Part shown: positions 1 through 42,170 of the stretch, one piece after another
How positions within the stretch are numbered: position 1 is the first letter of the stretch
How the letters are laid out: each line of letters starts with the position of its first letter
NCBI GenBank assembly: GCA_017942035.1
Contig: JAGAVG010000014.1
Coordinates: 1-42,170, forward strand
Origin: a bacterium
GTDB lineage: Bacteria; Cyanobacteriota; Vampirovibrionia; Gastranaerophilales; Gastranaerophilaceae
Length of the DNA: 42,170 nt
Direction of reading: 5' to 3'
Translations under genes and position numbers: made by a program
Notes under the pieces: generated by a model
Seen by the model: only the letters and a program-made list of their open reading frames with translations
Told to the model about the DNA's origin: nothing
The model's database searches: none

Positions 1-50
1 ATATTATCCTCTTGCAAATTTTTGCCTTCCATAATTTTATATTCTAGCAT
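1..50 (-). CDS. N-terminus of an unknown protein, cut by the window edge
   Basis: Sixteen codons of a minus-strand reading frame start at an ATG (50-48) and run off the left edge; the visible protein begins MLEYKIMEGKNLQEDN. An AGGAG Shine-Dalgarno lies at 60-56, five bases before the ATG, which is good spacing and the main reason to believe the start. No family can be named from so few residues. The gene diverges from ssrA, so it belongs to the chromosomal side rather than to the accessory region. Confidence 0.55.
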   Translation of the reverse strand, partial: MLEYKIMEGKNLQEDN

Positions 51-3039: not shown

Positions 3040-3353
3040 AACGCAACTCCAAAAAACTTTTTGCCGTTCCATCTGGTTCCTGTAATTTCATTAGCTATTG
3101 CAGATAAACTTTTGTACTTTTTACCGTTGTATTCATAACCGTTTTGAATTACTGTTACCGAGTATCGTTTACCCCTAAACTCCCGAACCAACTTTGTTCC
3201 ATCAGTAATTGAAAGTGTCTTGTTTTCTTTTTCAACATTTTGAGTTCTGTCATAATGTTCGACTAATTTGTCGATTTTGCGTTGAATCTCAGATGATAAA
3301 GAACCATATTGATCTTCCCAATTTTTAATTCGTTTTTGAAAAATATTAGCCAT
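3036..3353 (-). CDS. DUF2924 protein, recombinase partner
   Basis: This 105-residue protein matches the DUF2924 pattern: a basic helical N-terminus followed by GTKLVREFRGKRYSVTVIQ, NGYEYNGKKYKSLSAIA and NEITGTRWNGKKFFGV. DUF2924 proteins are typically encoded directly before serine recombinases in phages and integrative elements; their biochemical role is not established, and an accessory DNA-binding or directionality role is plausible. The start at 3353 (MANIFQKRI) has a GAGG ribosome binding site and is preferred over an upstream ATG at 3380. Its stop overlaps the recombinase start in ATGA. It is divergent from the Mrr gene. Confidence 0.85.
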   Translation of the reverse strand: MANIFQKRIKNWEDQYGSLSSEIQRKIDKLVEHYDRTQNVEKENKTLSITDGTKLVREFRGKRYSVTVIQNGYEYNGKKYKSLSAIANEITGTRWNGKKFFGVAL

Positions 3354-3415
3354 ATATGATACCTCTTTAGCTGTATTCACATTAATCGCTCTTGTTGCAG
3401 GTTAAATCAAGTCCA

Positions 3416-3444
3416 TTGACACAATAGTTATCATTCGCTACAAT
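3416..3444 (+). promoter_or_regulatory. Promoter of the mrr-like gene
   Basis: TTGACA (3416-3421), a 17-base spacer and TACAAT (3439-3444) are close to consensus. Transcription would start near 3451, after the upstream ATG at 3446, so translation must begin at the ATG at 3464. The promoter sits in the divergent gap with the DUF2924-recombinase pair. Confidence 0.75.
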
Positions 3445-3463
3445 TATGAAAAAGGAGTTTAGA

Positions 3464-4372
3464 ATGGCTATTCCAAATTATCAAGAATTTATGCTTCCTA
3501 CATTAGAAGTTATTGCAGATGGGCAAGAACACAAAAACAGTGATGTTGTTCAAGCTGTTGCAAAAATATTAAATCTTACAGAAGAAGATATGCAAGAAAT
3601 GTTGCCTAGTGGCACTCAACAAACATATTATAATCGTGCAGGTTGGGCTAGAACTCATCTTAAAAAAGCGGGGTTGTTGGAATATCCATCTCGCGGTGTT
3701 ATGCAAATTACAGAAACAGGTAAATCTGTAATGGCGAATAAACCACTTAAAATCGATAATAAATTTCTTTCTCAATTTGAAGGTTTTAATCAATTTAAGT
3801 ATAATTCTGAAAGTAAAATTGAAGAAAAAGACAAAGAAGAACAAATTATAACTGATGCTCATACTCCTGATGAAATTTTTGAAGTCGCAGAAAAAGAATA
3901 TTTTAATTCTCTTAAACAAGATTTATTAGATGCATTAAAAAAAGTTGACCCTGTACGTTTTGAAAGAATAGTACTTGATTTAATGGAAAAAATGAATTAT
4001 GGTATCGGAGAAATGACAAAACGTAGTCATGATGGTGGTATCGATGGAATTATAAATGAAGATGAACTTGGATTACAAAAAATTTACCTGCAAGCTAAAA
4101 GATATTCTGAAAATAAAGTAAATGAAAAAGAAATTCAAAATTTTGTAGGTGCTCTTGATTGTTCAGATACAAATAAAGGTGTTTTTATAACTACAAGTTA
4201 TTTTTGCGAAAAAGCACAGAAAAAAGCGGCAGCAGCTAAAAATAAAATTATACGTTTAATCAATGGAGAAGAACTTGTGACACTAATGATTAGATATAAT
4301 CTTGGTGTTCAAACTAAAAAAACTTATACTATAAAAAGAGTTGATGAAGATTATTTGACTGGTGACTTGTAA
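3464..4372 (+). CDS. mrr: Mrr-family restriction endonuclease
   Basis: This 302-residue protein resembles Mrr, a type IV restriction enzyme that cuts modified DNA. Residues about 1-90 form the N-terminal winged-helix recognition domain (AIPNYQEFMLPTLEV, SGTQQTYYNRAGWARTHLKKAGLLE, RGVMQITETG). The C-terminal PD-(D/E)xK nuclease domain has RFERIVLDLMEKMNYG, then HDGGIDGIINEDELGL with the metal-binding aspartate, then YLQAKRY with the QxK catalytic lysine. All expected catalytic residues are present, so it should be active. The ATG at 3464 has AAGGAG six bases upstream and begins MAIPNYQ as in family members. It stands alone, with its own promoter, divergent from the recombinase. Loss of the element's own unmodified state, or entry of foreign modified DNA, would be its target; which modification it reads cannot be seen. 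Confidence 0.92.
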   Translation: MAIPNYQEFMLPTLEVIADGQEHKNSDVVQAVAKILNLTEEDMQEMLPSGTQQTYYNRAGWARTHLKKAGLLEYPSRGVMQITETGKSVMANKPLKIDNKFLSQFEGFNQFKYNSESKIEEKDKEEQIITDAHTPDEIFEVAEKEYFNSLKQDLLDALKKVDPVRFERIVLDLMEKMNYGIGEMTKRSHDGGIDGIINEDELGLQKIYLQAKRYSENKVNEKEIQNFVGALDCSDTNKGVFITTSYFCEKAQKKAAAAKNKIIRLINGEELVTLMIRYNLGVQTKKTYTIKRVDEDYLTGDL

Positions 4373-4403
4373 AAGATAAGTTTTATGTTAAAACACTTGA
4401 TAC

Positions 4404-4451
4404 AAAATCCTTTCGAGCGATGTATGTAAATACAAAACTTGAAAGGATTTT
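4404..4451 (+). promoter_or_regulatory. Long RNA hairpin covering a ribosome binding site
   Basis: AAAATCCTTTC (4404-4414) pairs perfectly with GAAAGGATTTT (4441-4451). AG/CT continue the stem across one mismatch, then an inner TGTAT/ATACA helix is capped by a GTAA (GNRA-type) tetraloop at 4426-4429. The 3' arm contains the GAAAGGA ribosome binding site of the 48-codon gene at 4455. The stem would hide that site, so it may regulate its translation, or partly terminate mrr transcription. Confidence 0.6.
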
Positions 4452-4454
4452 ATT

Positions 4455-4601
4455 ATGGCAAATTTAGAAGAAGTTATCGGAGTATTAAACGAAGTACAAA
4501 ACTTGGATCCCGAAAACAGAACTGCTGATGTTTATATCGCAGGTAAATATCTATTCATTACAAGACCGGATCAAGATGACGGATACTATATTGAACTGTA
4601 A
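4455..4601 (+). CDS. Unknown 48-residue acidic microprotein
   Basis: An ATG at 4455 with GAAAGGA eight bases upstream opens a 48-codon frame. The protein begins MANLEEVIGVLNEVQNLDPE and ends TRPDQDDGYYIEL, is acidic, and has no membrane segment. No family is recognised. The next small frame also contains a YYIEL stretch followed by acidic residues, so the two may be distant relatives. Its ribosome binding site is buried in a strong hairpin, which suggests translational control. Small acidic proteins beside a nuclease gene are sometimes inhibitors or DNA mimics, but nothing here shows that. Confidence 0.6.
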   Translation: MANLEEVIGVLNEVQNLDPENRTADVYIAGKYLFITRPDQDDGYYIEL

Positions 4602-4624
4602 TGATACGAATTGTGTTCTAAGAC

Positions 4625-4861
4625 TTGATTTCCTGTGCAACAAGAGTGATTAATGTATGTACAGGGAGGAACAACTTATGGACATCGCATTCTGAACAAA
4701 AATCATCAACAGAAAAACAAACCAAATCGGATTACTTATCAAAACTTGGCTTAACGAATACGCAGACAGTGGTATTTGTTTGGTATGCCACTTGCGTTGA
4801 TACAAAAGGGAAACGCTATTATATCGAACTTGATGAAATCGCACCACTTGAAGATGAATAG
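4625..4861 (+). CDS. Unknown small protein with uncertain start, possibly frameshifted
   Basis: The frame is open from a TTG at 4625 to the stop at 4859-4861 (78 residues). Only the part from about 4680 looks protein-like; it ends KRYYIELDEIAPLEDE, and the acidic C-terminus resembles that of the preceding microprotein. No ribosome binding site precedes the TTG. The strongest one (AGGGAGGA, 4663-4670) precedes an ATG at 4678 in another frame, which meets TGA after five codons. A +1 shift at TTC-TGA would join that start to this frame. So this is either a gene with a shifted start, a damaged gene, or a sequence with an unidentified start. Function unknown. Confidence 0.4.
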   Translation: MISCATRVINVCTGRNNLWTSHSEQKSSTEKQTKSDYLSKLGLTNTQTVVFVWYATCVDTKGKRYYIELDEIAPLEDE

Positions 4862-4963
4862 CTAAAAAGTTTTACAAAAATTTAAAAACAGCAAAACAGG
4901 CTTTACATAAAACTTTTCAAGCATTATCCCCCTACAAATAAGCTACCCACCTAACTTTACAGC

Positions 4964-4992
4964 TTGAGTATTTGCGCGACGTCTGATATAAT
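4964..4992 (+). promoter_or_regulatory. Promoter of the 5013 gene
   Basis: TTGAGT (4964-4969), a 17-base spacer and TATAAT (4987-4992) lie just upstream of the ribosome binding site and ATG at 5013, giving a short leader. Confidence 0.65.
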
Positions 4993-5012
4993 AAGCATGT
5001 TGAGGACATAAT

Positions 5013-5360
5013 ATGACAATCAAAATCAGTCAAAATATTAACGACAACTCGATAAAACATTCTAGCGGTCTGCAATCAATTGATGCAATAATCGGAAATA
5101 TTGCCTCTGCAATTAATGAACCGATTAAGCATAGATGTAAAAAAGTTTTTAGTCGTATGCAGGCATTTTTACTCGACCTCATACGTTCAATTTCCAGTTT
5201 TGAACTTTTTATTCAGCCTTTAACAAATTTAGAATCAGAATTACGAATTTGGGAATTTATAAAACTTCAAATCCAGATTTTATCAGAAATAAATATACAA
5301 AATTTAGTCCTTTTACATCAGATTTATAATGACGACACTACCCCTGATTTACTTGCATAA
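5013..5360 (+). CDS. Unknown 115-residue protein
   Basis: The gene has its own promoter (4964-4992) and a TTGAGGA-type ribosome binding site before the ATG, so it is probably expressed. The protein starts MTIKISQNINDNSIKH and is mainly helical, with amphipathic segments around AFLLDLIRSISSFELFIQPL and IWEFIKLQIQILSEINIQNL; neither is a clear membrane span. No family is recognised. It precedes a ParB-fold gene, separated by a terminator-like hairpin, so the two are not clearly one operon. It is likely island cargo of unknown role. Confidence 0.6.
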   Translation: MTIKISQNINDNSIKHSSGLQSIDAIIGNIASAINEPIKHRCKKVFSRMQAFLLDLIRSISSFELFIQPLTNLESELRIWEFIKLQIQILSEINIQNLVLLHQIYNDDTTPDLLA

Positions 5361-5388
5361 TGCAATTTTTATTGCACGGGTCTTTTTT
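5361..5388 (+). terminator. Possible intrinsic terminator
   Basis: TGCAAT (5361-5366) and ATTGCA (5371-5376) form a short hairpin with a TTTT loop, followed after CGGGTC by six T. It is right after the stop codon of the 5013 gene. The stem is weak and the T-tract is offset, so termination may be partial. Confidence 0.35.
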
Positions 5389-5450
5389 GCCTTTATCGGC
5401 ACAATTTGTGCTGTGAAGGTTTGATTACACTCTGTAAATAGGAGATAAAA

Positions 5451-5984
5451 ATGCAAAAAAATATAAAAAAATTAAACTCTGAAAACATTTCAGAATCACT
5501 GCGACACTTTAGAAAAATCGTATTAGAAGGGAAAAATCCGACAAACAACTTACAAATGATTGACATCAACTTAATCGTATTGAGATTGAAAAGTTTACGC
5601 AAACATTCGAAAAAGCAGATTCAAAAGCTGATAAATGCAATCATCAAAGTCGGTTACGTAAATCCCATACTGCTTGATAAAAAGTACAACATACTAGCAG
5701 GGGAATTACGGCTTTTGGCGGCAAAGGAACTCGGATTTACTCAAATTCCTGCAATAATACTCGAAAACCTTACTCAAGAAGAAGCTGACACAATCAGAAT
5801 TCTTGACAATAGAATTGCAGAAGATGGCGAATGGAACTTCGAAAACCTCAAAGAAGAAATCGAAAAGTTGATGAAATTTGATATAACTTTTGAAGATTTG
5901 GCTTTTGATACAATCGATTACGATAAAATATTTCTCGCTGATAATTCAGAGGAAGGGCACGTGAAAGTTAAAGTTCTCTTTTAA
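5451..5984 (+). CDS. ParB/Srx-fold domain protein
   Basis: This 177-residue protein contains a ParB-type N-terminal domain at about residues 40-130: INLIVLRLKSLRKHSKKQIQKLINAI, VGYVNPILLDKKYNILAGELRLLAAKELGFTQIPAIIL and LTQEEADTIRILDNRIAE. In the family this fold binds nucleotide (CTP) or carries nuclease activity, and many phage or island versions are fused to a DNA methyltransferase. Here the methyltransferase half is missing; the protein stops shortly after DNRIAEDGEWNFENL, the point at which such fusions would continue. It lacks the helix-turn-helix of chromosome-partitioning ParB, so a partition role is unlikely. The ribosome binding site ATAGGAG precedes the ATG, and a strong terminator follows at once. 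It may be a truncated relic of a methyltransferase fusion or a stand-alone regulator or nuclease. Confidence 0.8.
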   Translation: MQKNIKKLNSENISESLRHFRKIVLEGKNPTNNLQMIDINLIVLRLKSLRKHSKKQIQKLINAIIKVGYVNPILLDKKYNILAGELRLLAAKELGFTQIPAIILENLTQEEADTIRILDNRIAEDGEWNFENLKEEIEKLMKFDITFEDLAFDTIDYDKIFLADNSEEGHVKVKVLF

Positions 5985-5991
5985 CTTATAA

Positions 5992-6024
5992 AAACCCGAT
6001 TCTTAAAATGAATCGGGTTTTTGC
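5992..6024 (+). terminator. Intrinsic terminator after the ParB-fold gene
   Basis: AAACCCGATTC (5992-6002) pairs perfectly with GAATCGGGTTT (6010-6020) over a seven-base loop, ending in a short T-run. It is eight bases after the stop codon and separates this gene from rhuM. Confidence 0.85.
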
Positions 6025-6049
6025 CTATATTGCATAAATATGCTATAAT
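6021..6049 (+). promoter_or_regulatory. rhuM promoter with a dyad in the spacer
   Basis: TTGCCT (6021-6026), 17 bases and TATAAT (6044-6049). The spacer contains the dyad GCATAAATATGC (6032-6043) abutting the -10 box, a typical place for a repressor operator. The ATG of rhuM follows at 6074 with AAAGGA before it. Confidence 0.65.
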
Positions 6050-6073
6050 AACGTAAAATCAAAGGATTACGGC

Positions 6074-7069
6074 ATGGAAAATGAAATCATTATTTACCAA
6101 ACTCAAGATGGTCAAACCAAAATTGATGTAAGAATAGAAAACGAAACGGTTTGGTTGACTCAAAATCAAATGGTTGACTTATTTCAATCAAGTAAAGCAA
6201 ATATTAGCGAACATATTTCCCATATCTTTGAAGAAGGGGAACTGAATGAAAATTCAGTTGTTCGGAAATTCCGAACAACTGCACAAGATGGTAAAAATTA
6301 TGAAGTTAAACATTACAACTTGGACGTAATTATTTCTGTAGGTTATCGTGTTAAGTCATTGCGTGGTACGCAATTCAGAATTTGGGCAACACAGATCCTG
6401 AAAGAATATATGCGAAAAGGTTTCGCCTTAAATGATGACTTATTAAAACAATCAGGTGGCGGCGGATATTGGAAAGAACTTTTGGAACGTATCAGAGATA
6501 TTCGTTCATCCGAAAAAGTTTTTTACCGTCAAATTTTGGATATTTACGCAACAAGTACGGATTACAATCCTAACGCTGATGAAACCAAATTATTTTTCAA
6601 AGTTGTTCAAAACAAGATGCATTTTGCAGCTCACGGACATACCGCAGCTGAAATCGTATATTTAAGAGCTGATAGCACAAAAGATAATATGGGCTTGACT
6701 GTTTTTAAAGGCAATCATCCGAAAAAAGATGAAGTAACTGTTGCGAAAAATTATCTAGACGAGAAAGAACTGAATATTTTGAACCGAATTACATCAGCAT
6801 ATCTTGAATTTGCAGAATTACAAGCAATTAGACAAATACCGATGACAATGAAAGATTGGATTGCAAAACTTGATGATTTTATCAAAATGACAGGAAGCGA
6901 ACTTCTTGATAATCCCGGCAAAATCACAAAACTGGAAGCTGAAAATAAGGCACTTGCTGAATATGCAAAATACAAAGAAACAATAAAAGACGAACTATCC
7001 GAAGTCGAAAAACACTTCCTGGAATCAGTTAAACAGATTCAAAAACAATTAGAGAAGAGAAAAAGGTAA
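6074..7069 (+). CDS. rhuM: RhuM-family protein
   Basis: This 331-residue protein matches the RhuM (virulence RhuM) family over its full length. The start is typical: IIIYQTQDGQTKIDVRIENE, VWLTQNQMVDLFQSSKANISEHI, then SVVRKFRTTAQDGKNYEVKHYNLDVIISVGYRVKS and GTQFRIWATQILKEYMRKGF. The region around residues 150-245 (IYATSTDYNPN, FFKVVQNKMHFAAHGHTAAEIVY) is the conserved core. A coiled-coil (LEAENKALAEYAKYKETIKDELSEV) closes the protein. The family is named from a Salmonella pathogenicity island gene; its activity is not established, although such genes recur in restriction and toxin loci. It has its own promoter with a possible operator. Its stop is only two bases from the stop of the convergent helicase gene. 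Confidence 0.9.
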   Translation: MENEIIIYQTQDGQTKIDVRIENETVWLTQNQMVDLFQSSKANISEHISHIFEEGELNENSVVRKFRTTAQDGKNYEVKHYNLDVIISVGYRVKSLRGTQFRIWATQILKEYMRKGFALNDDLLKQSGGGGYWKELLERIRDIRSSEKVFYRQILDIYATSTDYNPNADETKLFFKVVQNKMHFAAHGHTAAEIVYLRADSTKDNMGLTVFKGNHPKKDEVTVAKNYLDEKELNILNRITSAYLEFAELQAIRQIPMTMKDWIAKLDDFIKMTGSELLDNPGKITKLEAENKALAEYAKYKETIKDELSEVEKHFLESVKQIQKQLEKRKR

Positions 7070-7071
7070 TA

Positions 7072-10000
7072 CTAACCAACATCTTTAAATTCTCTCCATA
7101 TATTTCCAGGTCTTTTAATAATATCAAATATATTTATATATTTAATATTTTGTGTTGATTTGTTTTTTGTTAGAGGGTGAACTATTTCATAATTATTTGT
7201 TGCATATTTTGTATTTTTAATTAATTCCTTCATGTTTAAAGTTGCTTTTGACTTAAGCTCAATCCAATATTTATTATCAAGAGATGGAATAAATTTTTTA
7301 TTAAAAAGCATATTTACCATGTCAAAACCTAATCGCCAGTCAAGTAAACCGTGATAATGTAAATTACTATAATCTTGCATACAGATATAACAAGAACTGT
7401 CACATTGTTTTAAATGTGTATCTTCCATAAATGTCTTTTTAAAATCACCTTCAAGAATATAGTTTAAAACTTTTTGAAAATTATTTTCATTACATAACCA
7501 ATTACTATATCCAGCACCATTTTCAAGAGCATCCGACAGAAATATTTGAGCTGTAACAGGTGAATATTCTCCACCATTTTTAATAGGACGTAACCCCGCC
7601 ATAATTTCCTTTTTATCTACATCTAATATAACTGCCAAAGCATCACGCAATAAAAAGGCTAGTGAATAGTAGGCACTTTTTGAATAAATATTATCTTTAT
7701 TAAAAGATAAGTCTATAGAACTTGGAATTTCTTTTATTTCTGTTAAGAAAACATTTGTCATTTTACTTGATAAAAGAGCAACTGCTTTTGGTTCTTGCTG
7801 TACATCTTTTTGATAATCTTTTAGATTTATATTTGACCCTAACTTTTCTTGATATGCATTGACAGCATCATCGGATATCCATAAATTTGTGTCTTTACCA
7901 TCTTTGTCTTTTAATGCATGAAAGTTATAATTTTCTCCTAAATTATCATTAATTGAAATAACTTGAACCAATTTTGATGTATCAAGATAATTATAATTAT
8001 ATTGCTTACTTGGAGTCAAGATAATTTCTGTTTGGTTTATTTGAGGTTTTTGTGAATATGGAGTATAGTCAAAATTACCATCATAATCAACAGCAGCTTT
8101 TCCATCAATACCTAGAGTAAAAAATTCTTCAGGCTGAATAGTATATACTATTTTCCCTTCTTCATTGCATTGGTCACAAATATTACTATCAGGATTTTCT
8201 TTTATATTTTTGCATGAGTTACAAACTAAAAAAGTTTTTGTTTTGTCTTGTGATAATTTTTCACTTTTTATACCTACTGCAATATGAATTTTTTTATCTT
8301 TAACCGTTTCCGCTTTAGGGGCAAATTGACTTATTGCAATATCTAAATCTCTGTTAATTAAATCTTTATCAGTTTTTTTATTGCTGATTTTTAAATTTCG
8401 GCTTCTTGTTGGAAATCCAAACATTGGTAGTACACCAGCATTTGCCAGAAGTTCACTCAGATATTTAAATTCATTATTATTTCTTGCAACAATTTCGTCA
8501 ATATCAATAATTAAATTTTCTTTAATTTGGTTAATTAAATTTTCTCTTTTATCAATACATTTGGTTTCTTTAAATAAAATATCCGCAAATTTTTCTAACA
8601 CATTTTCATTATTTTGTAGCCAATTTGCAACTATTATCCTATTATTATCCCATTCTGACACTGTTCCAAATTCTCCATGAACACTATCATAATTATTATC
8701 TTCAGAATTTATTCCAGATAATGCAACTCTCAAAATTTCTTTATTTAAAAATCTTTTCAGAATAACATCACTTCTCATATCTAGATATGGCGGAACAGTT
8801 AAATCATTTGTTATTTTTTGAGGATTATTAAAATAAAAAGAATCATGATTTCTATTACGACAAACCGTTAGTGAGATTGCAAGAGGGTTACCCCTACGAC
8901 CTGCACGCCCGACTCTTTGTTGGTAATTGAATCTTTCAGGAGGCATATTTGACATCATAACAGATTCTAATGAGCCAATATCAACACCAGCTTCCATTGT
9001 TGTTGTAACACTTAAAACTTCAATAGAATCTTTTATATGCCACTCAGTTTTATCACTATTATCACTATTAATGTAAATCTCTTGGAATTTACGCTGCCGC
9101 TCTTTTTGATCATTTTTGTTCGTTTGGGCTGTCAATTCTTCACTAATTAATCTTTGAGGTTTTTCTTGGGCAAGTTTATAATAAAAATTACCTTCGAAAA
9201 TATTATTAATATTTTCCTGTTCTTCTAAATCTGCACCATTACATGCCTTATTAATACATTTCCCGTTTGATGGATTTAAGTATAACTTACCACAATTTGA
9301 ACATTTATAATATGTAATATGTAAATCACTACTTGGTATAATACACAAGTTTTCAGGATTTAAAAAATAATTTGTTGTATCTACAACTTTTGTTCTGATT
9401 AATAAATTTTCTAGTTTTTGAATTGAAAATCCTATTGAATTAGCATATAATTTTAAAAAGTTTAAATTTGGACGAGTATTTGCATTTGTTCCTTTATACA
9501 AAGAATATTCACCCATAATTCTTATAGCGGAGTCAACAGCTTCTTGTTCATTTTGAGAAAGTTTATACGTGTTTCTATCATATGTAACAATACCTATTCC
9601 TATAGCTTCAAATCCTCTTTTGTTGTTAAATAACGTTTTTAATAACTCTGTTCTTAGTTCACCTATAATCTGCGCTCTAAAGTTACTTGCTTGAGGGTCA
9701 TTGATTTTCTTTTCTCCATTGAACTTTCCATCATCCCACGAAAATAACTCTGTCCAACTTTTATTATTAAAATAATTTCTTTTATATCCTCCAGGATTTA
9801 TACCTAACTTTAGTAATGAGTAATAAACTTTATTCTCAATCTGTTCAAATTTGTATAATGGTTTATCAATATTTTGAATAATGGTTTCGGCTTTTTCTAT
9901 ATCAGTTTTATCCAAATATTCATTATTTTTAAAATATTCAAACAGAATATTCCCATTTTCGTTTTTACGTAAATCCATTATTCTTTGTTTTTGTTCTTTT

Positions 10001-12180
10001 GTGTGTTCCGATTTTTTTAACAATTCAATTAATTCTTTGTCTGAACTGACAATATTTTGCAATGTTTGATATGTAACTTGTCTTAAAGTATCTCTATAAT
10101 GATCCATTTCTATGCCGGCAGAAAGCTTGGCCGCATCTTGCCTGCTATCAGTAAAGATGACTAAATTTCGTTTATGCTGTAGACAAAGTAACTTATCTGC
10201 CAAAAGCTGATTAAGTTTTTGAAATCCGTATGTAATTGGTTTAATTACATATCTTGTCTTTTTCGGATCTGTTGGTACAGCCCAGTTATCATTACAATAT
10301 GGGCATTCTGATGGCATGGCTGTTTCATTTTTAAAATCCTCAGAAACGTTGTAAGCATAACAATTATAATTTTGTACATCAAGGTTTAAAGAACCATTAT
10401 TAAAATCATACTTATATTTTTTCCATTCCCAAATTATTTTTCCTTTACTTTGATAACATTTATCATCGGGTTGATTACCATCCGGTTTAATTACTAGATA
10501 ATTTGAAACTGTTTTATTTATATTACAAACTTCAGGCATTGTTTCTAAATCGGTATTTTCAGGGAAAAGATATATTTCATTATCATCTTTATCTTGTTTC
10601 TTATTAAAATAACCACCTAATAAGGTTTCTCCACAAGTCTGGCATATTAACAGTTCTAATACTCTTGCACCACATTTACAGATAGATTTCGGTTCAGAAT
10701 ATATTTTACCAATTTTTCGACCTTTTTCTTTATATTTTTCATCCAGTTCAGTACAGTTCGGATTTGTACATGCCCACAATCCCTGAAAATTCTTAAAGAA
10801 ATAATGAACTCTTAGGGGGAAGTTATTTTCTTCAAATAGTTTTTCCAGTTGTTTCGAGGTTTTTCCACTAATTTTTTCTAACTCTTTTAAAGATTTTGTC
10901 AAATACCTTTTTTGAGTTTTATCATAAAAAAGAGATTTAAGTCCTTTTTCAATACTATTGCAGTCATCAGGTTTTATCAAATCACCAGAAATTATTTCAA
11001 ATTTATTCTTATCTTTGCAGCCAAAAAATGCCTGTAGAAATTGTTTACTATCCTCTTCATTATCACCAAGTGATGCTGAGGATGCAAGAATTTGTAATTG
11101 ATTACTATCAGGCGTAAGACCTATTCTGTCGAGAAAAGTTCTTAATAAGTATGCAATTTCTGTACCTGCAGTTCCTCTATAAGTATGAAGTTCATCAAGA
11201 ACAAGTTGAAATTTATGGTTTAATCTATCTTGTTCAAGCCATTGTTTTGTTTTTTCAAAAATATTGGTTTCAATATTTCTCATCAACATAATATTTAACA
11301 TTGAATAATTTGTAATTAATATATCCGGCGGGAATTTCTGCATATCCCATCTGGAATACATTTCAGCTCCATCAAGTCTTGGAATAAAATATTTACCTTT
11401 ACTAGTAATATTATTATCTTTATCCTTATATTGTACATTTTGCTTCAAATAAATAGATTCTAATTCTTCCTGTAAATCTTTAATCTTTTTATTTGTTATT
11501 GTACCTGATACAGGTGTTGAACTATTATATCTTCCAAAATATATAAGATTATTATTACGTCTTTCTTTTAAAAATTTTCTAGCATCATCACTGTCAAGTG
11601 TTTTCCTTAATCTTATTAATTGATCCTCTACTAAAGCATTTAATGGATATAAAATCAATGCCCTAACAGCAGCTTTTCTGTTTTCACCTTCTCTTTGATA
11701 ACACATAGTATCTTTTACGATATTTCTCCAAGGTGTTTGTTTAAATTCGCTACGGCTATTCCAAGTTTTAGATTCATTTAAAATATTTTGAATTACAGGA
11801 AGTAAAAAAGTTTCTGTTTTGCCTGAACCTGTTCCTGATGTTACAATTATATGTTTATTTTTATGTTGTAAAGCTTGTTTTTGATGAGTATACAAAGTAT
11901 ATGGAGTTTTACCGATTTGTGGGAATAGGCTATCCTTGAATGCAATAAAATCATATAAATCTTTATCATTCAAATCCTCCATAATATCTTTTTTAAGAGT
12001 ATTATCTGTAAATTTATATTTACTTATATGTTCAATATATGGGTCTTGAAAAAGCGTAGATTTTATTATATCAAGTCTTTCTTGATTAATACTTTCCAAG
12101 TTAAACTTATCTCTTGTTGTAATATAATCAATATAAGAACTCTTTAATTCTTCAAAAACTGTACTTGGTGAACTAGACAT
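7072..12180 (-). CDS. Giant DEAD/DEAH helicase with DUF1998, DruE-like
   Basis: This 1702-residue superfamily-2 helicase resembles DruE of Druantia anti-phage systems and more distantly YprA/Lhr and DISARM helicases. Motif I is GTGSGKT (116-122), motif II DELH (329-332), motif III SSAS (about 367), motif V TTTMEAGVDIG (about 1050) and motif VI QRVGRAGRR (about 1083), so ATPase residues are intact. Cysteine clusters that could bind zinc lie near 470-515 (CKCG, CQTC), 955-980 (CSNCGK, CINKAC) and 1318-1340 (CNSC, CDQC). The C-terminal DUF1998 part has LSDALENGAGYSNWL and CDSSCYICMQDYSN followed by LLDWRLGFD. It is last in a four-gene operon; its ATG overlaps the upstream stop in TAATG, with GGAGG as ribosome binding site. 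Assignment to DruE rests on size, architecture and operon position; helicase identity is certain, the system name is not. Confidence 0.9.
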   Translation of the reverse strand: MSSSPSTVFEELKSSYIDYITTRDKFNLESINQERLDIIKSTLFQDPYIEHISKYKFTDNTLKKDIMEDLNDKDLYDFIAFKDSLFPQIGKTPYTLYTHQKQALQHKNKHIIVTSGTGSGKTETFLLPVIQNILNESKTWNSRSEFKQTPWRNIVKDTMCYQREGENRKAAVRALILYPLNALVEDQLIRLRKTLDSDDARKFLKERRNNNLIYFGRYNSSTPVSGTITNKKIKDLQEELESIYLKQNVQYKDKDNNITSKGKYFIPRLDGAEMYSRWDMQKFPPDILITNYSMLNIMLMRNIETNIFEKTKQWLEQDRLNHKFQLVLDELHTYRGTAGTEIAYLLRTFLDRIGLTPDSNQLQILASSASLGDNEEDSKQFLQAFFGCKDKNKFEIISGDLIKPDDCNSIEKGLKSLFYDKTQKRYLTKSLKELEKISGKTSKQLEKLFEENNFPLRVHYFFKNFQGLWACTNPNCTELDEKYKEKGRKIGKIYSEPKSICKCGARVLELLICQTCGETLLGGYFNKKQDKDDNEIYLFPENTDLETMPEVCNINKTVSNYLVIKPDGNQPDDKCYQSKGKIIWEWKKYKYDFNNGSLNLDVQNYNCYAYNVSEDFKNETAMPSECPYCNDNWAVPTDPKKTRYVIKPITYGFQKLNQLLADKLLCLQHKRNLVIFTDSRQDAAKLSAGIEMDHYRDTLRQVTYQTLQNIVSSDKELIELLKKSEHTKEQKQRIMDLRKNENGNILFEYFKNNEYLDKTDIEKAETIIQNIDKPLYKFEQIENKVYYSLLKLGINPGGYKRNYFNNKSWTELFSWDDGKFNGEKKINDPQASNFRAQIIGELRTELLKTLFNNKRGFEAIGIGIVTYDRNTYKLSQNEQEAVDSAIRIMGEYSLYKGTNANTRPNLNFLKLYANSIGFSIQKLENLLIRTKVVDTTNYFLNPENLCIIPSSDLHITYYKCSNCGKLYLNPSNGKCINKACNGADLEEQENINNIFEGNFYYKLAQEKPQRLISEELTAQTNKNDQKERQRKFQEIYINSDNSDKTEWHIKDSIEVLSVTTTMEAGVDIGSLESVMMSNMPPERFNYQQRVGRAGRRGNPLAISLTVCRNRNHDSFYFNNPQKITNDLTVPPYLDMRSDVILKRFLNKEILRVALSGINSEDNNYDSVHGEFGTVSEWDNNRIIVANWLQNNENVLEKFADILFKETKCIDKRENLINQIKENLIIDIDEIVARNNNEFKYLSELLANAGVLPMFGFPTRSRNLKISNKKTDKDLINRDLDIAISQFAPKAETVKDKKIHIAVGIKSEKLSQDKTKTFLVCNSCKNIKENPDSNICDQCNEEGKIVYTIQPEEFFTLGIDGKAAVDYDGNFDYTPYSQKPQINQTEIILTPSKQYNYNYLDTSKLVQVISINDNLGENYNFHALKDKDGKDTNLWISDDAVNAYQEKLGSNINLKDYQKDVQQEPKAVALLSSKMTNVFLTEIKEIPSSIDLSFNKDNIYSKSAYYSLAFLLRDALAVILDVDKKEIMAGLRPIKNGGEYSPVTAQIFLSDALENGAGYSNWLCNENNFQKVLNYILEGDFKKTFMEDTHLKQCDSSCYICMQDYSNLHYHGLLDWRLGFDMVNMLFNKKFIPSLDNKYWIELKSKATLNMKELIKNTKYATNNYEIVHPLTKNKSTQNIKYINIFDIIKRPGNIWREFKDVG

Positions 12181-13049
12181 TACTTGCCTCCAACTTCTAG
12201 TAATCTTGTAACTTTTTCAGCTGTTTTATAATCAATATTTTCATATATGTAATAATTATTTTTAACGTGTGGATTCATACCACTTAACATAGTTAAAGCT
12301 CTATCAATTTGTTCAGGGAAATGTATATATAATAATATTTTTAAACAATTATCTTTATATTGAATTAAATTTTTGTTTTGAGCATACTTATGAGCAATAA
12401 AAATCCCATAATCTTTGTTTATTTTATACCAATTATTATCTTTGAAAAAATAATATTCATTATTTCCGGGAAATAATGCTCTATATAAACCATTTAAGGG
12501 AGTACTAAATTCTATTTGTTCAAATCTATAATTTTTTGTATTATATACATTTATATTTGGCTGAGAAATTATCAAAGGATATTCGACGGGTAACATCTCA
12601 TTTTCTATTTGTTCAATATTAGGAATTATATTAAGAATTTTTTGCGAAAAATCTTTAGATATTCTTATATCCGGAAATTCACTTTGAAATTTATCAATAT
12701 CATCAATTTCAACATTTATTAGTTTAGGAGCATTCTGATTGGCTATATCATTAATTTTGTATTTATTTGCAATTTCCATCAAAAAATCTTTTGTCCTATA
12801 GCCCGACAAAATTCCAATATTCTTGCTTATTAAAATAGTTGGCTTACAGACAGAAAAAGTTCTATTTGTATAATCAAATTCAATATGAGATAATCTTGAA
12901 AACATTCTTCTTATAGTAGAATATTCAAATATTTCTATCTCATTATTATAGTCTAAATTATCAACATATTTATTAAATTGCTGCAATGTACCTGTTTTTA
13001 AGTAGCTTAAATATTCTAATAAAATGTCAAAATCAATATTATTCAACAT
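12180..13049 (-). CDS. Unknown defence-operon protein, possible winged helix (DruD position)
   Basis: This 289-residue protein has no family I can name. The N-terminus looks like a winged helix: FDILLEYLSYLKTGTLQQFNKYVDNL, then STIRRMFSRLSHIEFDY, NRTFSVCKPTILISKNIGIL and SGYRTKDFLMEI. The C-terminal half is rich in aromatic residues and strands (NEYYFFKDNNWYKINKDYG, NLIQYKDNCLKILLYIHFPE). No catalytic motif is visible. Its ATG follows the stop of the upstream gene with no gap, and its own stop overlaps the helicase start (TAATG), so the product is probably made in step with both. In a Druantia-like reading it would occupy the place of DruD, but this rests on order only. A DNA-binding adaptor for the helicase is a reasonable guess. 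Confidence 0.7.
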   Translation of the reverse strand: MLNNIDFDILLEYLSYLKTGTLQQFNKYVDNLDYNNEIEIFEYSTIRRMFSRLSHIEFDYTNRTFSVCKPTILISKNIGILSGYRTKDFLMEIANKYKINDIANQNAPKLINVEIDDIDKFQSEFPDIRISKDFSQKILNIIPNIEQIENEMLPVEYPLIISQPNINVYNTKNYRFEQIEFSTPLNGLYRALFPGNNEYYFFKDNNWYKINKDYGIFIAHKYAQNKNLIQYKDNCLKILLYIHFPEQIDRALTMLSGMNPHVKNNYYIYENIDYKTAEKVTRLLEVGGK

Positions 13050-14801
13050 TTAAAAAACCTCATATTTCTTGAATGTTATTGGAATATCGAATGCATCTTT
13101 AGATTTTGATTTTACAAAAACAAATTTTAAATTATTAAGAAATTCTATCCTTTTAAAAACTTCATATTCTTTTTTTACATCAGTATCTGGATGAATTAAA
13201 TCCAAAAATCCTTTAACTTCAAGATTTTGAAAAAACGGCTCTAAATATATTTCTGGTAAAATTTTATTAAAATCATTAAATATAACTATCCCAAAAGGCA
13301 AATTAGGATTTAATTTTATTGATTTATAATAATCAGCAACCAAAGTGTTAGAAGGGATAAACTTATTATTTGTATCAAAAAATCCAAACCAGTCACTATA
13401 TGAAGTCCAATCATATTCTACTATAACTTCTAGCGGATTGCATCCAAATTTTTGGCATTTTAACCACACTGCAATATCTTTTTTATCTTCAACTATAATA
13501 ACATTATTATGCTTTAACTTTTCATGCAGTTTAAAATCATAATCATTTTCGGCTTTGTTCAGTTCAAATCTAAATTCTTCTTTAAACTCTTCATCATCAA
13601 TCAGCATCATCGAAGCTTTTTGGTAAATTCCCTGATTAAAATTTAAACCTTTCTCCGCCACGTATGAACTCTTTTGTGTTTCCATGCTAGAAATGTCAAT
13701 CAACAATTGTTCTTTTTGTTTATTTAGCTCTTCTAACTCTATATTTACATCAATAAACTTTTGCTCATAAAGCTTATCAGCTTCCAATAATAATTCTTCT
13801 TTTAGATTTAGCATTCTTATAACTAGTTTTGATGTTTTTTCATCTGATAAAATTAAATGTTTTAAAAACTTTCTAAATTCTTTATTTTCCATTTGTGCAT
13901 GAAAATCTCTTATATCAAGTTTCCTATATTGTTCAAGAGTTTTATTTGTAACTTGTAGCTTTTCATTTTGTGATACAATTTCATCATAATCTTCAAGTTG
14001 AGCTTTCAATTCATCAATTTCAATTTCTTTTTTAGATAATTGTTTTTCAAAATTCTGCTTCATCTTATCGATATTAGTATGTTCAAACTGTTTTATTTGC
14101 TTTTGAAGTTTATTATTTTCTTCCTGATAAAAATCTAATTCAAGATTTTTATCTTCAATTTCCTGATTTAATGAACTGATTAATTCATCTTTATGATTTA
14201 ACTTTGCTTCGTATTGAACAATTTCTTGATGCGAAGTTTGTGACTTATGAAGATGTTCTATAATGTCCAGTCTAGTTTTGCAATTATGTATTAGTTTATT
14301 TAATTCAGGACTAGGAATAATTGGGCCAAAATTATAAAAAATATCTATAGTTTCTTTTGATATAAGAAACTCTTTATTCTTTTTTATAAGAAATTTTAAA
14401 AAATCTATATCACCTATATCAAAATTACTTTTTTCTATTTTTTTTAAAGAAATATATTCCTCAATAAAAGTTAGTGAAAATTCAGAATTTGTTTCCATAA
14501 ACAATGAATATATCGTAGATAGCATTTCAAATGCACCATTTTCAGGCAAAGTTTTTTTTCTGTTAGTTGAATTTGTAAAACGACCAATCCCTTTTAATGC
14601 TTTGCAAAATCGTTCTTTTGTTTCTAATCCAAACTTTTTTGAATTGTCGCTTTCATGTTTAAGATGAGTTGGAACAAAAGGAGATAAGATTTTAATTAAA
14701 CAACTTCTGCCAGGACCATTCTTTATCTCATCAAGAAAATTAATTATATACTTATCTTCAAAACTTTGAATTATTTTTACTTTTTCATTAGGATACTTCA
14801 T
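13050..14801 (-). CDS. Coiled-coil protein with an apparently inactive AAA+ domain (DruC position)
   Basis: This 583-residue protein has three parts. Residues 1-180 are helical and unknown. About 190-300 and 350-380 are long coiled coils (e.g. QEIEDKNLELDFYQEENNKL). About 425-583 resemble the McrB-type AAA+ fold: NNVIIVEDKKDIAVWLKCQK stands where Walker A (GxPGxGKT) belongs, EYDWTSYSDWFGFFDTNNKF matches the strand-and-loop 'xPDWTxxxDLLGYxD' block, and PFGIVIFNDFNKILPEIYLE fits the Walker B block normally written ILDEMNLARVEYY. Glycines and lysine of Walker A and the DE of Walker B are missing, so ATP hydrolysis is unlikely. The domain reading is my inference from these blocks. The gene sits seven bases after the first gene of the operon, with AAGGAA before its ATG. 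It may be a structural or sensor subunit. Confidence 0.75.
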   Translation of the reverse strand: MKYPNEKVKIIQSFEDKYIINFLDEIKNGPGRSCLIKILSPFVPTHLKHESDNSKKFGLETKERFCKALKGIGRFTNSTNRKKTLPENGAFEMLSTIYSLFMETNSEFSLTFIEEYISLKKIEKSNFDIGDIDFLKFLIKKNKEFLISKETIDIFYNFGPIIPSPELNKLIHNCKTRLDIIEHLHKSQTSHQEIVQYEAKLNHKDELISSLNQEIEDKNLELDFYQEENNKLQKQIKQFEHTNIDKMKQNFEKQLSKKEIEIDELKAQLEDYDEIVSQNEKLQVTNKTLEQYRKLDIRDFHAQMENKEFRKFLKHLILSDEKTSKLVIRMLNLKEELLLEADKLYEQKFIDVNIELEELNKQKEQLLIDISSMETQKSSYVAEKGLNFNQGIYQKASMMLIDDEEFKEEFRFELNKAENDYDFKLHEKLKHNNVIIVEDKKDIAVWLKCQKFGCNPLEVIVEYDWTSYSDWFGFFDTNNKFIPSNTLVADYYKSIKLNPNLPFGIVIFNDFNKILPEIYLEPFFQNLEVKGFLDLIHPDTDVKKEYEVFKRIEFLNNLKFVFVKSKSKDAFDIPITFKKYEVF

Positions 14802-14808
14802 AATTTCC

Positions 14809-16632
14809 TTATTTTTGCAATGTTTGCATATATCGTAACTCTATATTATCAGTTAAATTACAATTTACAAAATTTTTATTAAAATTGTAACAAATATCTT
14901 TATTAAGATTATAAAATTTTTTATTTTTTCGTTTTTTATTAATAGATTTCAATATCATTAAGACTTTATGTTTCTTTAGATTTTTACTTATAACAGAAAC
15001 TGGCTTATAGTTCTGAATATAACAACCATTGATTAAATTAATTTCATTTGTATTAGACTCTGTTGTTCGATATATAAAAGAAACATCAAAATATTTAAAA
15101 AGAGGTTTAAAAGGTTCATCTTCTATTTTATCAACAATTCTGTAACTCAATGAACTATTGTTTTGTGTAATTATAAAGTGCAAACCAATTAAATTATCGC
15201 GAATTCTCAAATCTACAGGATAACCAGAATATGTTTCAAAATTTTTATTATCTATACAAAATTTTACTGTTTCATTTCCATTGTTGGATAAAAACAATAA
15301 AGGTTCGGCATTTTTCAAGTATTCAGATTTATACCCATTTTTTAAGCCTTTTTTAAGAAAAATTTTGTCCTTTGCAAAAATATTTAGACTACTACTTTCT
15401 TTCAAAATCTTTATTGAATCAATAATCATTAAATATGGCAAATTTTCATCAATAAAAATCGGTTTAACAATATTATTTGTTATAGACTTAATTAATCGAC
15501 TATTTTTCTTAAAAAAAGTCGGTGTTGCTATAATTGAAATACAATCACCAATTTCTGCAAAATTGCACTCAACATAATATCCTTCAAATACTTCGCTCTT
15601 TTTAAACAGTATAAAATCTCTTTTTGGATATCTTATTTTGAATTTATCATTAACCATAATTTCTTTTTTTTGCAATTTTATATCTTTTAAATCTATTGAA
15701 ATCGGTTTATAATAATTTTCAAAATCCGAAGTTTTTGTAAAAGTTTTATTTTCAAATATAAATTCATTTAAATTTTTATTATACTTAATTATTTCATAAA
15801 AGGAGAACTCAAAACGTTCTTTTGTATACAAAAGTTTAGGTGTAAGTATATAGAGTTCTTTATTAGTTTTTTCGTCAATTTCACAAACTTGTCCATCCCA
15901 ATTTTGATATAACAAATTAATTTTATCTTCTAATACATATTTATATTTTTCATGACTTGCTAACGTTTTAAAAGCATGACTGAACTTATTGATTTCCAAA
16001 TTAGAAATTAATATTTTATCGTTTTTTGCATTATCAAAAACACTTGTTAATAAAGCCCTATCTTTTTGAGAAATCATAGATTGAAAAATAGGGATTCCTA
16101 TCCAATCTTCTCTTTTTCTACTAATATTTTGGAATAATTTTTCAAATCTTATCTTTCCTAATTTACCATTTATCACATTATTTACATAATTTTCAAAATG
16201 ACTATATATCTCAAAATATTTTTCTTTATCATTAACCCTGAATCCTTTTTCAATAGAGTTGTCATAGAATTTTTCAGAAATAGCTTTTAAATGTAAGTAA
16301 TAATTTCGATTTGAAATATTTTTATCTTCTCCCATTTTACTTGCTGCAAATATAAAAAATGCAATAATTGCAGTTTGAGATGGGACATTATCATTAATTT
16401 CTAATTTTATATTATTTAATCTTATAATATTTTTATTTTTAGAATTCAAATATATTAATTGTTGAGAAACAGCTTTACAGAAATCATCTATAATTTCAGA
16501 TTTAACAATATTATATTCTTCGCCTATCTTTAAAAGAACATCCTCATCTACACAGAATAAAACTTCTTTATGTGCTTTATTCTCGTTAAAAAAATAATCA
16601 AATATTCTTTTATTCCAATACAGATAATCCAA
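14809..16632 (-). CDS. Unknown first gene of the helicase operon (DruB position)
   Basis: This 607-residue protein has no family I can name. It begins at TTG (16632-16630) with AAAGGAG six bases upstream; no in-frame ATG nearby fits as well. The N-terminus is distinctive: DYLYWNKRIFDYFFNENKAH then EVLFCVDEDVLLKIGEEYN, a WNxxIxxYFF start followed by a short strand-turn. A helical region (about 60-240) includes IIAFFIFAASKMGEDKN and WIGIPIFQSMISQKDRALL. The remainder is strand-rich with many phenylalanines and tyrosines and a basic tail. No membrane segment, nuclease or ATPase motif is visible. It leads the operon of four tightly packed genes ending in the DUF1998 helicase. By order it would match DruB of Druantia type I, with no druA ahead of it. 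Recognition of phage DNA is plausible but unproven. Confidence 0.75.
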   Translation of the reverse strand: MDYLYWNKRIFDYFFNENKAHKEVLFCVDEDVLLKIGEEYNIVKSEIIDDFCKAVSQQLIYLNSKNKNIIRLNNIKLEINDNVPSQTAIIAFFIFAASKMGEDKNISNRNYYLHLKAISEKFYDNSIEKGFRVNDKEKYFEIYSHFENYVNNVINGKLGKIRFEKLFQNISRKREDWIGIPIFQSMISQKDRALLTSVFDNAKNDKILISNLEINKFSHAFKTLASHEKYKYVLEDKINLLYQNWDGQVCEIDEKTNKELYILTPKLLYTKERFEFSFYEIIKYNKNLNEFIFENKTFTKTSDFENYYKPISIDLKDIKLQKKEIMVNDKFKIRYPKRDFILFKKSEVFEGYYVECNFAEIGDCISIIATPTFFKKNSRLIKSITNNIVKPIFIDENLPYLMIIDSIKILKESSSLNIFAKDKIFLKKGLKNGYKSEYLKNAEPLLFLSNNGNETVKFCIDNKNFETYSGYPVDLRIRDNLIGLHFIITQNNSSLSYRIVDKIEDEPFKPLFKYFDVSFIYRTTESNTNEINLINGCYIQNYKPVSVISKNLKKHKVLMILKSINKKRKNKKFYNLNKDICYNFNKNFVNCNLTDNIELRYMQTLQK

Positions 16633-39057: not shown

Positions 39058-39085
39058 TTGAAAAACTGAGAAAAAGTGGTATAAT
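39058..39085 (+). promoter_or_regulatory. Promoter of the pilin-adhesin gene
   Basis: TTGAAA (39058-39063), 16 bases, TATAAT (39080-39085). The AGGAG ribosome binding site (39119-39123) and ATG (39132) follow after a short leader. Confidence 0.7.
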
Positions 39086-39131
39086 GTAAATGTATTATTG
39101 TAACCAAAATGGATTTACAGGAGTTGAGTAT

Positions 39132-42100
39132 ATGAGGAATGACGATATGAAAAACATTGTAATTAACGGGTTAACCCCGATTAAGAAGAATTTTGCGTGT
39201 TTTTTGGACAACGTAAACAAATCAATGAAACGATTTAAAGCGCGGATTTCCGGTTTTACATTGGCGGAAATACTTGTTGCGTTAACCGTAGTCGGAATTG
39301 TTTCAGCATTAACAATTCCAACCCTGATGAACAGATATCAGGAAAAAACTTTTGACAGATTAACGTCAAAAGAAAAATTAAACATCCTCAATACTCTTGA
39401 TATGATAATGACTGATGAAGGCAAATCAAACCTTACAGCGGTCGGAATGAACACTGAAAACGGTGTTGAAACATATTTAAAAAATTATTACCGCGTAAAT
39501 ACCGTATGCGGTGATGACCCTTCCTCAAAAAACTGCTTAGCTGCTGGAACTTCCACAGAAGGTTTGCAATGTATAAAAACAAACGATGGCGCCACAATTT
39601 GTATGGGGCCTTTAAATAATGAAGGAAAAGGTGATATTCTTGTTGACGTAAACGCCTCTCAAGGGCCGAACGTAAGAGGTAAAGATATAGTTAAGCTAGC
39701 TTACCTTAATGACGGAAATTTTGGTGAGCCAAACTGCGAAGATAATGATCCTGCATGTATTAATGATCCACTAATCGGTAAAGAATATATATTGAAAGTT
39801 TTGCCTAAACGTCCGGGTGTGGAAACCGTCAGCCCAACACAGAAAGCTTTGTCAGAAGGTGAAACGACTACTATTTCAGCAACATACACAAAAGGATGGC
39901 GCTTAAAAGAATTCAAGATAGTTTCAGGAACCTGTGCTGTTGACAATACAGGCAAAGTCGTAATGGGTCGTAATAATTGTACAGTTCAAGTCTTGGCAGA
40001 AAAAATTCCGTTGAGATTAACTGTAAATCAAGGAAACTGCTATCGCGCATCCGGAAGCAAATATCCGATATATTATCTTGATACCGCAAGTATTGAAGCA
40101 GAACCGGAATGGCTCGGCTCATTCAATAACTGGACTGCATCAGGTGGATGCGAAGTATCAGGCAATACAGTAAAAATGACTGATGTTGCAGACTGTATAG
40201 TAACGCCATCTTGTAATCCTGCACCGTCTTATCCTGTAGAAGTTTCAGCCGGAAGCGGATGCAGTTATGTAGACCCGTCCAGTTTCTCATTAAAAATTGG
40301 TCGTGAAAAATCAGTATCAGTTGGAGCACAAGACGGATATAGTTTTGATTCTATGGGGACTAACAGCAACTGCAGCGCTAGCGGTCAAACAATAACAATG
40401 AGTCAACATGCAAGCGGAACATGTTATGCTACTGCATATTGCTCTGCAAATGATTATTGGCTTTCAGTAAAAGAAGGAGAATGTGAATCGGCGGGAACCA
40501 GCGGATACGTTACCTATGGCGATACCAAATCAATATCTGCAACTGCCGGCACAGGTAAAGATTTTAGCGGCTGGTCAATAACATCAGGCAGTTGTTCAGT
40601 ATCAGGCAACACCGTAACTATGGGAGCTGGCGATTGTACTGTAACAGCTCAATGCGGTGCTAAACCTACAATTACTGTTACTCCAGGCACTAATGCTGTT
40701 ACTGCAGGCGGATGTTCAGGCGTATCTGGCGGAGGTACAGTATATGAAGGCGAAAGTGTTACTGTTACTGCAAGCGTAGCTGAAGGTCAGACATTTGGAG
40801 GCTGGAGCGGCTGTGGTCAAACATCAATAAAAAATCCATTAACATTTACACCGACAGGAACCTGTGAAATCACAGCATCATGTACAACTCCGACACCTCC
40901 GACACCTGAAAAATATACAATAAGAGTAGATAAAGGAACTTGTAATGGTGCCTCTGGCGGTGGAGAAGTCGAATCCGGCAAGAGCGCAAGCATTTCTGCT
41001 ACAGCAGATGAAGGCGGAGCATTCACCGGATGGTCAGCAAGCTCTGGTTGTACAGTTGCAAACGCATCATCAGCAAGTACAACAGCATCAGCAACAGCAA
41101 ATTGTACTGTAACTGCTAGCTGTAGTGCAGCAGAGAAGAAAATAATTGTATCTGTAGCAAATAGCTCTACTAGCCCTTGTGAATCAGCCTCAGGCGGCGG
41201 AGAAGTTAAAGAAGGTGAATCCGTAACAGTAAAAGCAACAACAGGTACTGGTAAAAAATTTGCAAGCTGGAGTGGTTGCGGACAAACTTCAACTTCTGCA
41301 GAGCATACATTCACTCCAACAGAAAGCTGTACAATAACAGCTAGCTGTAATGATGAAGCAAAGCCAGAATATCAATTAACAGTAAACAAAGGCTCCTGTA
41401 CATCTGCCGAGAAATCAGGCAAGCATACCGCAGGCAGTAAAGTAACTATATCAAAAGTAGTTCCAGAAAACTATGACGATAATGGGTGGTCCATAAAAGC
41501 CGGTACTTGTACAGTAAGCGGCAATACCGTAACTATGGCCGCAGATAATTGTACAGTAGAAGCAAACTGTATTCCAAAAGATGTACCGAAGGTCAAAATT
41601 ACTGTAGATAAAGGCGTATGTTCTTCTGCAGCTGGAACAGCAACAGTAGAACAAAATACGAGTACAAGTATATCCGCAACGGCAGATACAGACAGTAACT
41701 TCCGTGGCTGGAGCGGTGAATGTACAGTAAAAGACCAAAATTCGGCCTCAACAACAGCAAGCAGTGCAAAAGATTGTACTGTAACAGCTAACTGTGACCA
41801 TAAATTAACAGTAATTGGCTATTGTGGAATAACAGATTTAACACCTGGAGATGCAAAATACTTATTACCAGGTGAGACACAGACAATTACATATAAGATA
41901 AAACCAGGCTATAGTCTTCGTGCAGGCGGCGGCAAAGATGGCGAAATATATGCAAGCGTACATAAAGGCGACGCGACCTTAACTAAAGACGCTAACGGCG
42001 GATTAACCTCCGTAACGATGGGCAAAGAATCGAGCATAATAGAGTTAATGAGCGGCTATGGTTTGCACTTAAGCTTAGGAAAAGATGCCGGAATAAAGAG

Positions 42101-42170
42101 TGCAAAATTTACATACAGCTATGCCGAGGATTGTACCCCCCACTCAAGTAGTGATAATAAAATAACACTG
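39132..42170 (+). CDS. Giant prepilin-type protein with InlB-B-like repeats, 3' end outside the window
   Basis: The frame is open for 1013 codons to the window edge, without a stop. After a long basic leader (about 48 residues, ending FKARISG) comes the type IV prepilin signal GFTLAEILVALTVVGIVSAL with the family glutamate at +5, so it should be cut by PilD-type peptidase and anchored by its hydrophobic helix. Residues 80-215 look like a pilin globular domain with paired cysteines. From about residue 218 follow about nine repeats of 65-72 residues ending CTVTAxC, with GxxFxGWSxxxGxC in the better copies (EGQTFGGWSGCGQTS, GKKFASWSGCGQTS, GGEVKEGESVTVKAT). They resemble divergent InlB B-repeats and may form disulfides. 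Such repeat-bearing proteins are typically surface adhesins. A last region near 41800-42170 differs from the repeats. AGGAG lies eight bases before the ATG. Confidence 0.88.
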   Translation, partial: MRNDDMKNIVINGLTPIKKNFACFLDNVNKSMKRFKARISGFTLAEILVALTVVGIVSALTIPTLMNRYQEKTFDRLTSKEKLNILNTLDMIMTDEGKSNLTAVGMNTENGVETYLKNYYRVNTVCGDDPSSKNCLAAGTSTEGLQCIKTNDGATICMGPLNNEGKGDILVDVNASQGPNVRGKDIVKLAYLNDGNFGEPNCEDNDPACINDPLIGKEYILKVLPKRPGVETVSPTQKALSEGETTTISATYTKGWRLKEFKIVSGTCAVDNTGKVVMGRNNCTVQVLAEKIPLRLTVNQGNCYRASGSKYPIYYLDTASIEAEPEWLGSFNNWTASGGCEVSGNTVKMTDVADCIVTPSCNPAPSYPVEVSAGSGCSYVDPSSFSLKIGREKSVSVGAQDGYSFDSMGTNSNCSASGQTITMSQHASGTCYATAYCSANDYWLSVKEGECESAGTSGYVTYGDTKSISATAGTGKDFSGWSITSGSCSVSGNTVTMGAGDCTVTAQCGAKPTITVTPGTNAVTAGGCSGVSGGGTVYEGESVTVTASVAEGQTFGGWSGCGQTSIKNPLTFTPTGTCEITASCTTPTPPTPEKYTIRVDKGTCNGASGGGEVESGKSASISATADEGGAFTGWSASSGCTVANASSASTTASATANCTVTASCSAAEKKIIVSVANSSTSPCESASGGGEVKEGESVTVKATTGTGKKFASWSGCGQTSTSAEHTFTPTESCTITASCNDEAKPEYQLTVNKGSCTSAEKSGKHTAGSKVTISKVVPENYDDNGWSIKAGTCTVSGNTVTMAADNCTVEANCIPKDVPKVKITVDKGVCSSAAGTATVEQNTSTSISATADTDSNFRGWSGECTVKDQNSASTTASSAKDCTVTANCDHKLTVIGYCGITDLTPGDAKYLLPGETQTITYKIKPGYSLRAGGGKDGEIYASVHKGDATLTKDANGGLTSVTMGKESSIIELMSGYGLHLSLGKDAGIKSAKFTYSYAEDCTPHSSSDNKITL

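Follow-up and report, generated by a model that had tools for sequence, protein, structure and literature searches.

Modular pilins have been surveyed as more than 1,200 proteins in 264 architectures, the most extreme reaching 860 residues, and one of them, the adhesin PilB of Streptococcus sanguinis, has been modelled at the tip of the pilus (PMC8179133). The initial annotation of the locus described here took pilins to be only 100-250 residues long, a range that overlooks this group. Shufflons have been described as hard to assemble (PMC9045228, PMC5430464), and a related Gastranaerophilus genome was reported to carry pilA, pilB, pilC, pilT and pilD (PMC5877343). We analysed a long prepilin gene of Gastranaerophilales that probably encodes a minor type IV pilin of modular design, with a rigid stalk of disulfide-braced repeats on display.

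The window, that is the whole stretch of DNA analysed (42,170 bases), is contig C43 in full and belongs to a draft genome of 1.99 Mb (84 contigs, 99.67% complete). The IleRS shares 83% identity with that of a Candidatus Gastranaerophilales bacterium, and Gastranaerophilales or Melainabacteria account for many of the top matches that carry a name. Its last gene is an open reading frame at 39090-42170 on the plus strand with 1,027 codons and no stop before the contig end. Because the window is the entire contig, the 3' end of the gene is missing. A 403-aa tail at C22:32500-31293 is a candidate 3' end, but no overlap ties it to the window. Elsewhere in the window, Druantia-like defence genes (DruE, DruL and DruF matches, interrupted by one gene of poor assignment) occupy 7072-16632, and a large serine recombinase, an Mrr-type restriction enzyme, a ParB-like gene and a RhuM-family gene adjoin them at 1582-7069. 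The features of the prepilin gene were placed as follows.

39058-39085, plus strand: sigma-70-like promoter, read directly and a consensus match only (TTGAAA at 39058-39063, 16 bp spacer, TATAAT at 39080-39085)
39119-39134, plus strand: ribosome-binding site AGGAG (39119-39123) and ATG start at 39132, read directly
39132-39254, plus strand: prepilin leader of 41 residues (10 with the ATG at 39225 as start); its last residue is Gly, followed by F(+1)TLAE
39255-39791, plus strand: type IV pilin module (TIGR02532/PF07963, paralogue alignment, AF2 model, PDB pilin profile matches)
39792-39998, plus strand: repeat 1, InlB-like, two cysteines (PF18998 22.7 bits, just below cut-off)
40011-40214, plus strand: repeat 2, four cysteines (alignment A1; 1.2e-22 with the A1 model, which includes this sequence)
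40227-40442, plus strand: repeat 3, four cysteines (alignment A1 and A1 model)
40455-40655, plus strand: repeat 4, four cysteines (PF18998 30.5 bits; A1 alignment and model)
40662-40883, plus strand: repeat 5, four cysteines (PF18998 25.4 bits; A1 alignment and model)
40911-41123, plus strand: repeat 6, four cysteines (PF18998 33 bits; modelled together with repeat 7)
41136-41348, plus strand: repeat 7, four cysteines (PF18998 32.8 bits; modelled together with repeat 6)
41367-41570, plus strand: repeat 8, four cysteines (PF18998 26.3 bits)
41589-41795, plus strand: repeat 9, four cysteines (PF18998 28.9 bits)
41796-42170, plus strand: degenerate repeat-like stretch truncated at the contig end, read directly, no stop codon
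42030-42170, plus strand: 141-bp segment that recurs headless, at the start of contig C21 (C21:1-141, 100%) and, for its last 58 bp, in contig C63 (98%)

The first ATG of the frame, at 39090, coincides with or precedes the expected transcript start. As the promoter puts this ATG at the transcript start, the ATG at 39132 with its AGGAG is likely the best start of the gene, and the combination of ribosome-binding site and promoter position favoured the same ATG that the initial annotation had chosen. The ATGs at 39147 or 39225 may serve as alternative later starts. Numbered from 39090, the GFTLAE motif falls at residues 55-60. The class III signal scored 25.0 bits with TIGR02532 in the genome profile search (cut-off 16.3), and PF07963 was marginal, at 20.7 bits just below its cut-off of 21.2. 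The leader had been proposed, for its unusual length and basic character, to support a special sorting route. This proposal did not hold, because the 41 residues found here fall within the range of 5-119 aa (median 34) of the leaders of 29 paralogous prepilins.

The pilin module was evaluated by alignment to paralogues and by structure prediction. The module contains a long N-terminal helix, a second helix, four strands and a conserved VDxNxxxxPNxxGxD motif. The paralogues matched through this motif, Glu5 of the mature protein was conserved, and the grafted repeats replace the final portion of the C-terminus seen in the paralogues. The AF2 model placed a 55-residue helix at residues 2-56 followed by the second helix and four strands, mostly at pLDDT 65-90. 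Alignment and model together show the long N-terminal helix and beta sheet of a pilin. When the pilin module was modelled together with repeats 1 and 2, the repeats (the second half of the model) and the linker joining them to the pilin were of low confidence, and a Foldseek search with this partly low-confidence model returned no match below E 0.001.

The extra, non-pilus domain that characterizes a modular pilin is present C-terminal to the pilin module in the form of PF18998 (Flg_new_2) repeats. The whole protein scored 124 bits with this family (gathering cut-off 23.6, E=2.3e-36) in seven stretches, while PF09479 matched at 9.5e-5, under its cut-off. About nine InlB-B-like repeats had been described after GFTLAE, and we also counted nine units, at residues 235-902 in the 39090 frame, the first with two cysteines and the other eight with four each. 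The array is not the end of the protein, as about 125 more residues, repeat-like but more degenerate, continue up to the contig end. In an alignment of the eight four-cysteine repeats with five from a second species of the genus, all four cysteines were invariant in 13 of 13 repeats. Modelling of the repeats, which the initial annotation had recommended, gave confident beta domains for repeats 6 and 7 with a mean pLDDT of 92.7 in a model built from only six sequences. Foldseek found no significant structural relative of this pair (best E 0.023), and the top rows, all at E of 0.023 or above, were Gram-positive pilins, a hook adhesin and FnIII arrays. As the Foldseek match was not significant, the picture of the repeats as beta beads is taken from the model only. 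A search of solved structures with the repeat profile likewise gave none.

To place the gene among its relatives we searched related genomes and other sequence collections. The second species of the genus (G001) carries a 619-aa prepilin on the minus strand at G001:C27:2-1870 whose parts come in the same order: a pilin part of 45% identity and then five complete four-cysteine repeats; this gene likewise runs off its contig. The same genome also encodes, in full, a prepilin of 461 aa that bears a single InlB repeat. A third genome of the genus had no four-cysteine repeat prepilin at the threshold used. Across 288 genomes of the family, the four-cysteine repeat model matched only in this genus and once in another genome, G191, and that single match was rejected as a related prepilin since its ORF begins like a Sec-secreted protein. 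PF18998 itself was found in 7 of 191 genomes of the family. A peptide-pattern search of the genome and viral contig collections (genome_contigs and viral_contigs) gave no close relatives, and tblastn of the repeat region in plasmids and phages gave none.

The genome was also assessed for processing machinery and for its prepilin repertoire. A prepilin peptidase was found at C84:50494-50883 in a 332-aa ORF (PF01478 38.5 bits, over cut-off). The search for cysteine-oxidising DsbA-type enzymes suggested in the initial annotation turned up a VKOR-DsbA-type disulfide oxidase: the VKOR domain lies at C39:15889-16308, in a 416-aa ORF that also bears a CPVC thioredoxin-like part (read directly). This enzyme could make the repeat disulfides. 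About 106 TIGR02532 matches, taken as prepilin genes, are present in the 2 Mb genome; among the family genomes listed, prepilin-like candidates ranged from 2 to 138 per genome. Only five prepilin ORFs exceed 400 aa, the window gene and four with S74-type C-termini.

L124:861-3221, L125:803-3154, L126:624-2834 and L127:738-3155: four S74-type prepilins of 737-806 aa

A search for further repeat-bearing prepilins in the genome had been suggested in the initial annotation. These four carry tandem repeats (GxxALxxNTTG) with units of about 23 residues that lead into an S74-type C-terminus, which was confirmed with PF13884 at 2e-15 in L124, the one of the four that was tested.

Several observations concern the DNA around prepilin genes. 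At least 27 of the 168 contig ends of the genome (table count) are found 5' of a prepilin gene at a distance of no more than about 600 bp, as would fit a repeat common to the upstream regions. Many prepilin genes are preceded by a shared region that measures about 140 bp or more, is roughly 80-97% identical and includes a GCACCA...TGGTGC inverted repeat; this region also stands at the starts of L020, L025 and L029. The left end of the window (1-141) is 100% identical over 138 bp to sequence upstream of a prepilin gene at the end of contig C15. Dispersed palindromic repeats (e.g. GGTAGACTTTAGTCTACC) occur in frame inside the cleaved leaders of prepilins in L007, L010, L015, L016, L020 and L023.

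In the proposed mechanism, Sec would insert the prepilin-repeat protein into the inner membrane, prepilin peptidase would cut after the Gly, and in the periplasm the VKOR-DsbA enzyme would close two disulfides in each repeat. The pilin helix would then pack into the type IV filament, most likely at its tip because the bulky graft fits there, and the rigid repeat chain would act as a stalk bearing a predicted variable distal binding part towards gut or bacterial surfaces. We infer the adhesion role from just the repeat type and precedent.

Other readings of the protein were weighed against this one. The protein may be processed like a pilin but not polymerised, its helix serving as an inner-membrane anchor and its repeats spanning the periplasm as a stalk. 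A prepilin signal can act as an anchor for a protein that is never assembled, and the size of the graft and the linker, which the model places between pilin and repeats at low confidence, would fit such an arrangement. However, a mere anchor would not need the complete pilin module that is conserved with about a hundred paralogues, including Glu5 and the beta sheet, and we consider this reading quite unlikely. It is more improbable still that the gene encodes the tip subunit of a type II secretion pseudopilus instead of a pilus adhesin. GspG was indeed the best NCBIfam match (E 5e-6), but this match covered the N-terminal helix only and reached 26.5 bits against a cut-off of 88.85 for the full-length equivalog, a score on which GspG identity was ruled out; GspG is not known to carry repeat adhesin grafts. 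That assembly error joined two genes is the least credible reading and can be given next to no weight: the genome is a draft metagenome assembly and the contig ends within the gene, but no stop or frame break follows the pilin part, where the initial annotation had allowed for a stop or an assembly join, and the independent G001 orthologue has its parts in the same order. This orthologue bears out the proposed fusion of prepilin and repeats, and together with the 1,027 stop-free codons it shows that the observed pattern is not due to chance. A modular minor pilin is the most probable reading.

A further proposal, made on top of the modular pilin, is that the 3' part of the gene is exchanged with headless donor copies, by a shufflon-like process or gene conversion, so that the distal part varies. 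The pieces at C21:1-141 and C63:1-147 are mid-gene fragments, and we call them headless because each borders non-coding DNA that precedes an unrelated, divergently oriented gene. A match of exactly 141 bases suggests an assembler k-mer junction, i.e. a repeat whose continuation was not binned. In the second species an intact headless tail of 724 codons (G001:C11:1861-4032) has no signal, and its first ATG, at codon 36, has no ribosome site; it and a second tail are arranged tail-to-tail and share a 67-bp inverted repeat (94%). In a third species (G103), two loci have matching flanks, 561 bp upstream at 99.8% and 854 bp downstream at 98.9%, but the C-terminal coding parts that these enclose differ (about 40-55% in an alignment with many gaps). 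Tail exchange would account for the headless pieces, the intact tail and the same-flank loci with different tails. Against it, all of the genomes are draft, probably short-read, metagenome assemblies, in which strain mixtures, paralogous repeat genes or fragmentary assembly could give the same contig ends, and the heads of the G103 loci lie outside view, so that these loci need not be prepilins. Neither a recombinase nor a common site was found at the tail boundaries or next to the window gene. We regard tail exchange as doubtful on this evidence, and it is similarly a tentative and rather unlikely idea that the repeat adhesin swaps its distal coding part with chromosomal headless tails for antigenic or receptor variation, outside the known shufflon and pilE/pilS systems. 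As a separate observation, a strong hairpin (-32.9 kcal/mol over a 182-base stretch, L141:4001-4182) lies between the headless tail and proS in the second species.

A modular pilin of this kind would extend the class to a stalk that is very long and rich in disulfides, from a gut lineage that is uncultured, and concrete genes are now given to test in Gastranaerophilales. With roughly one hundred prepilins in the genome and with the hints of tail exchange, variation of the surface by way of pili would become directly testable in this group by long reads.

Compared with known systems, the repeats belong by profile to the fold family of the InlB B-repeat or Listeria-Bacteroides repeat proteins (PF18998, PF09479), from which they differ by four invariant cysteines per repeat. 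InlB B-repeat proteins are delivered by a Sec signal and wall anchor, whereas delivery here would be by a pilin. The PilV minor pilins of IncI plasmids with shufflons resemble the present protein in having a pilin-borne adhesin with a variable C-terminal part (PMC9045228, PMC5430464); unlike in those systems, no invertase or sfx-type sites were found here. CofB and TcpB, tip minor pilins described in PMC8179133, are likewise large, with extra beta domains behind the pilin module, but CofB has two extra domains in place of a tandem array of four-cysteine InlB-like repeats. The closest likeness is to modular pilins such as S. sanguinis PilB and PilC, which share the class III signal and a complete pilin module with an adhesin-type graft behind it, and the survey of this group contains multi-repeat grafts and S74 grafts (PMC8179133). 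The graft here consists of InlB-B-like four-cysteine repeats in a Gastranaerophilales bacterium, and the mature protein has at least 970 residues as compared to 860 for the longest in the survey (PMC8179133).
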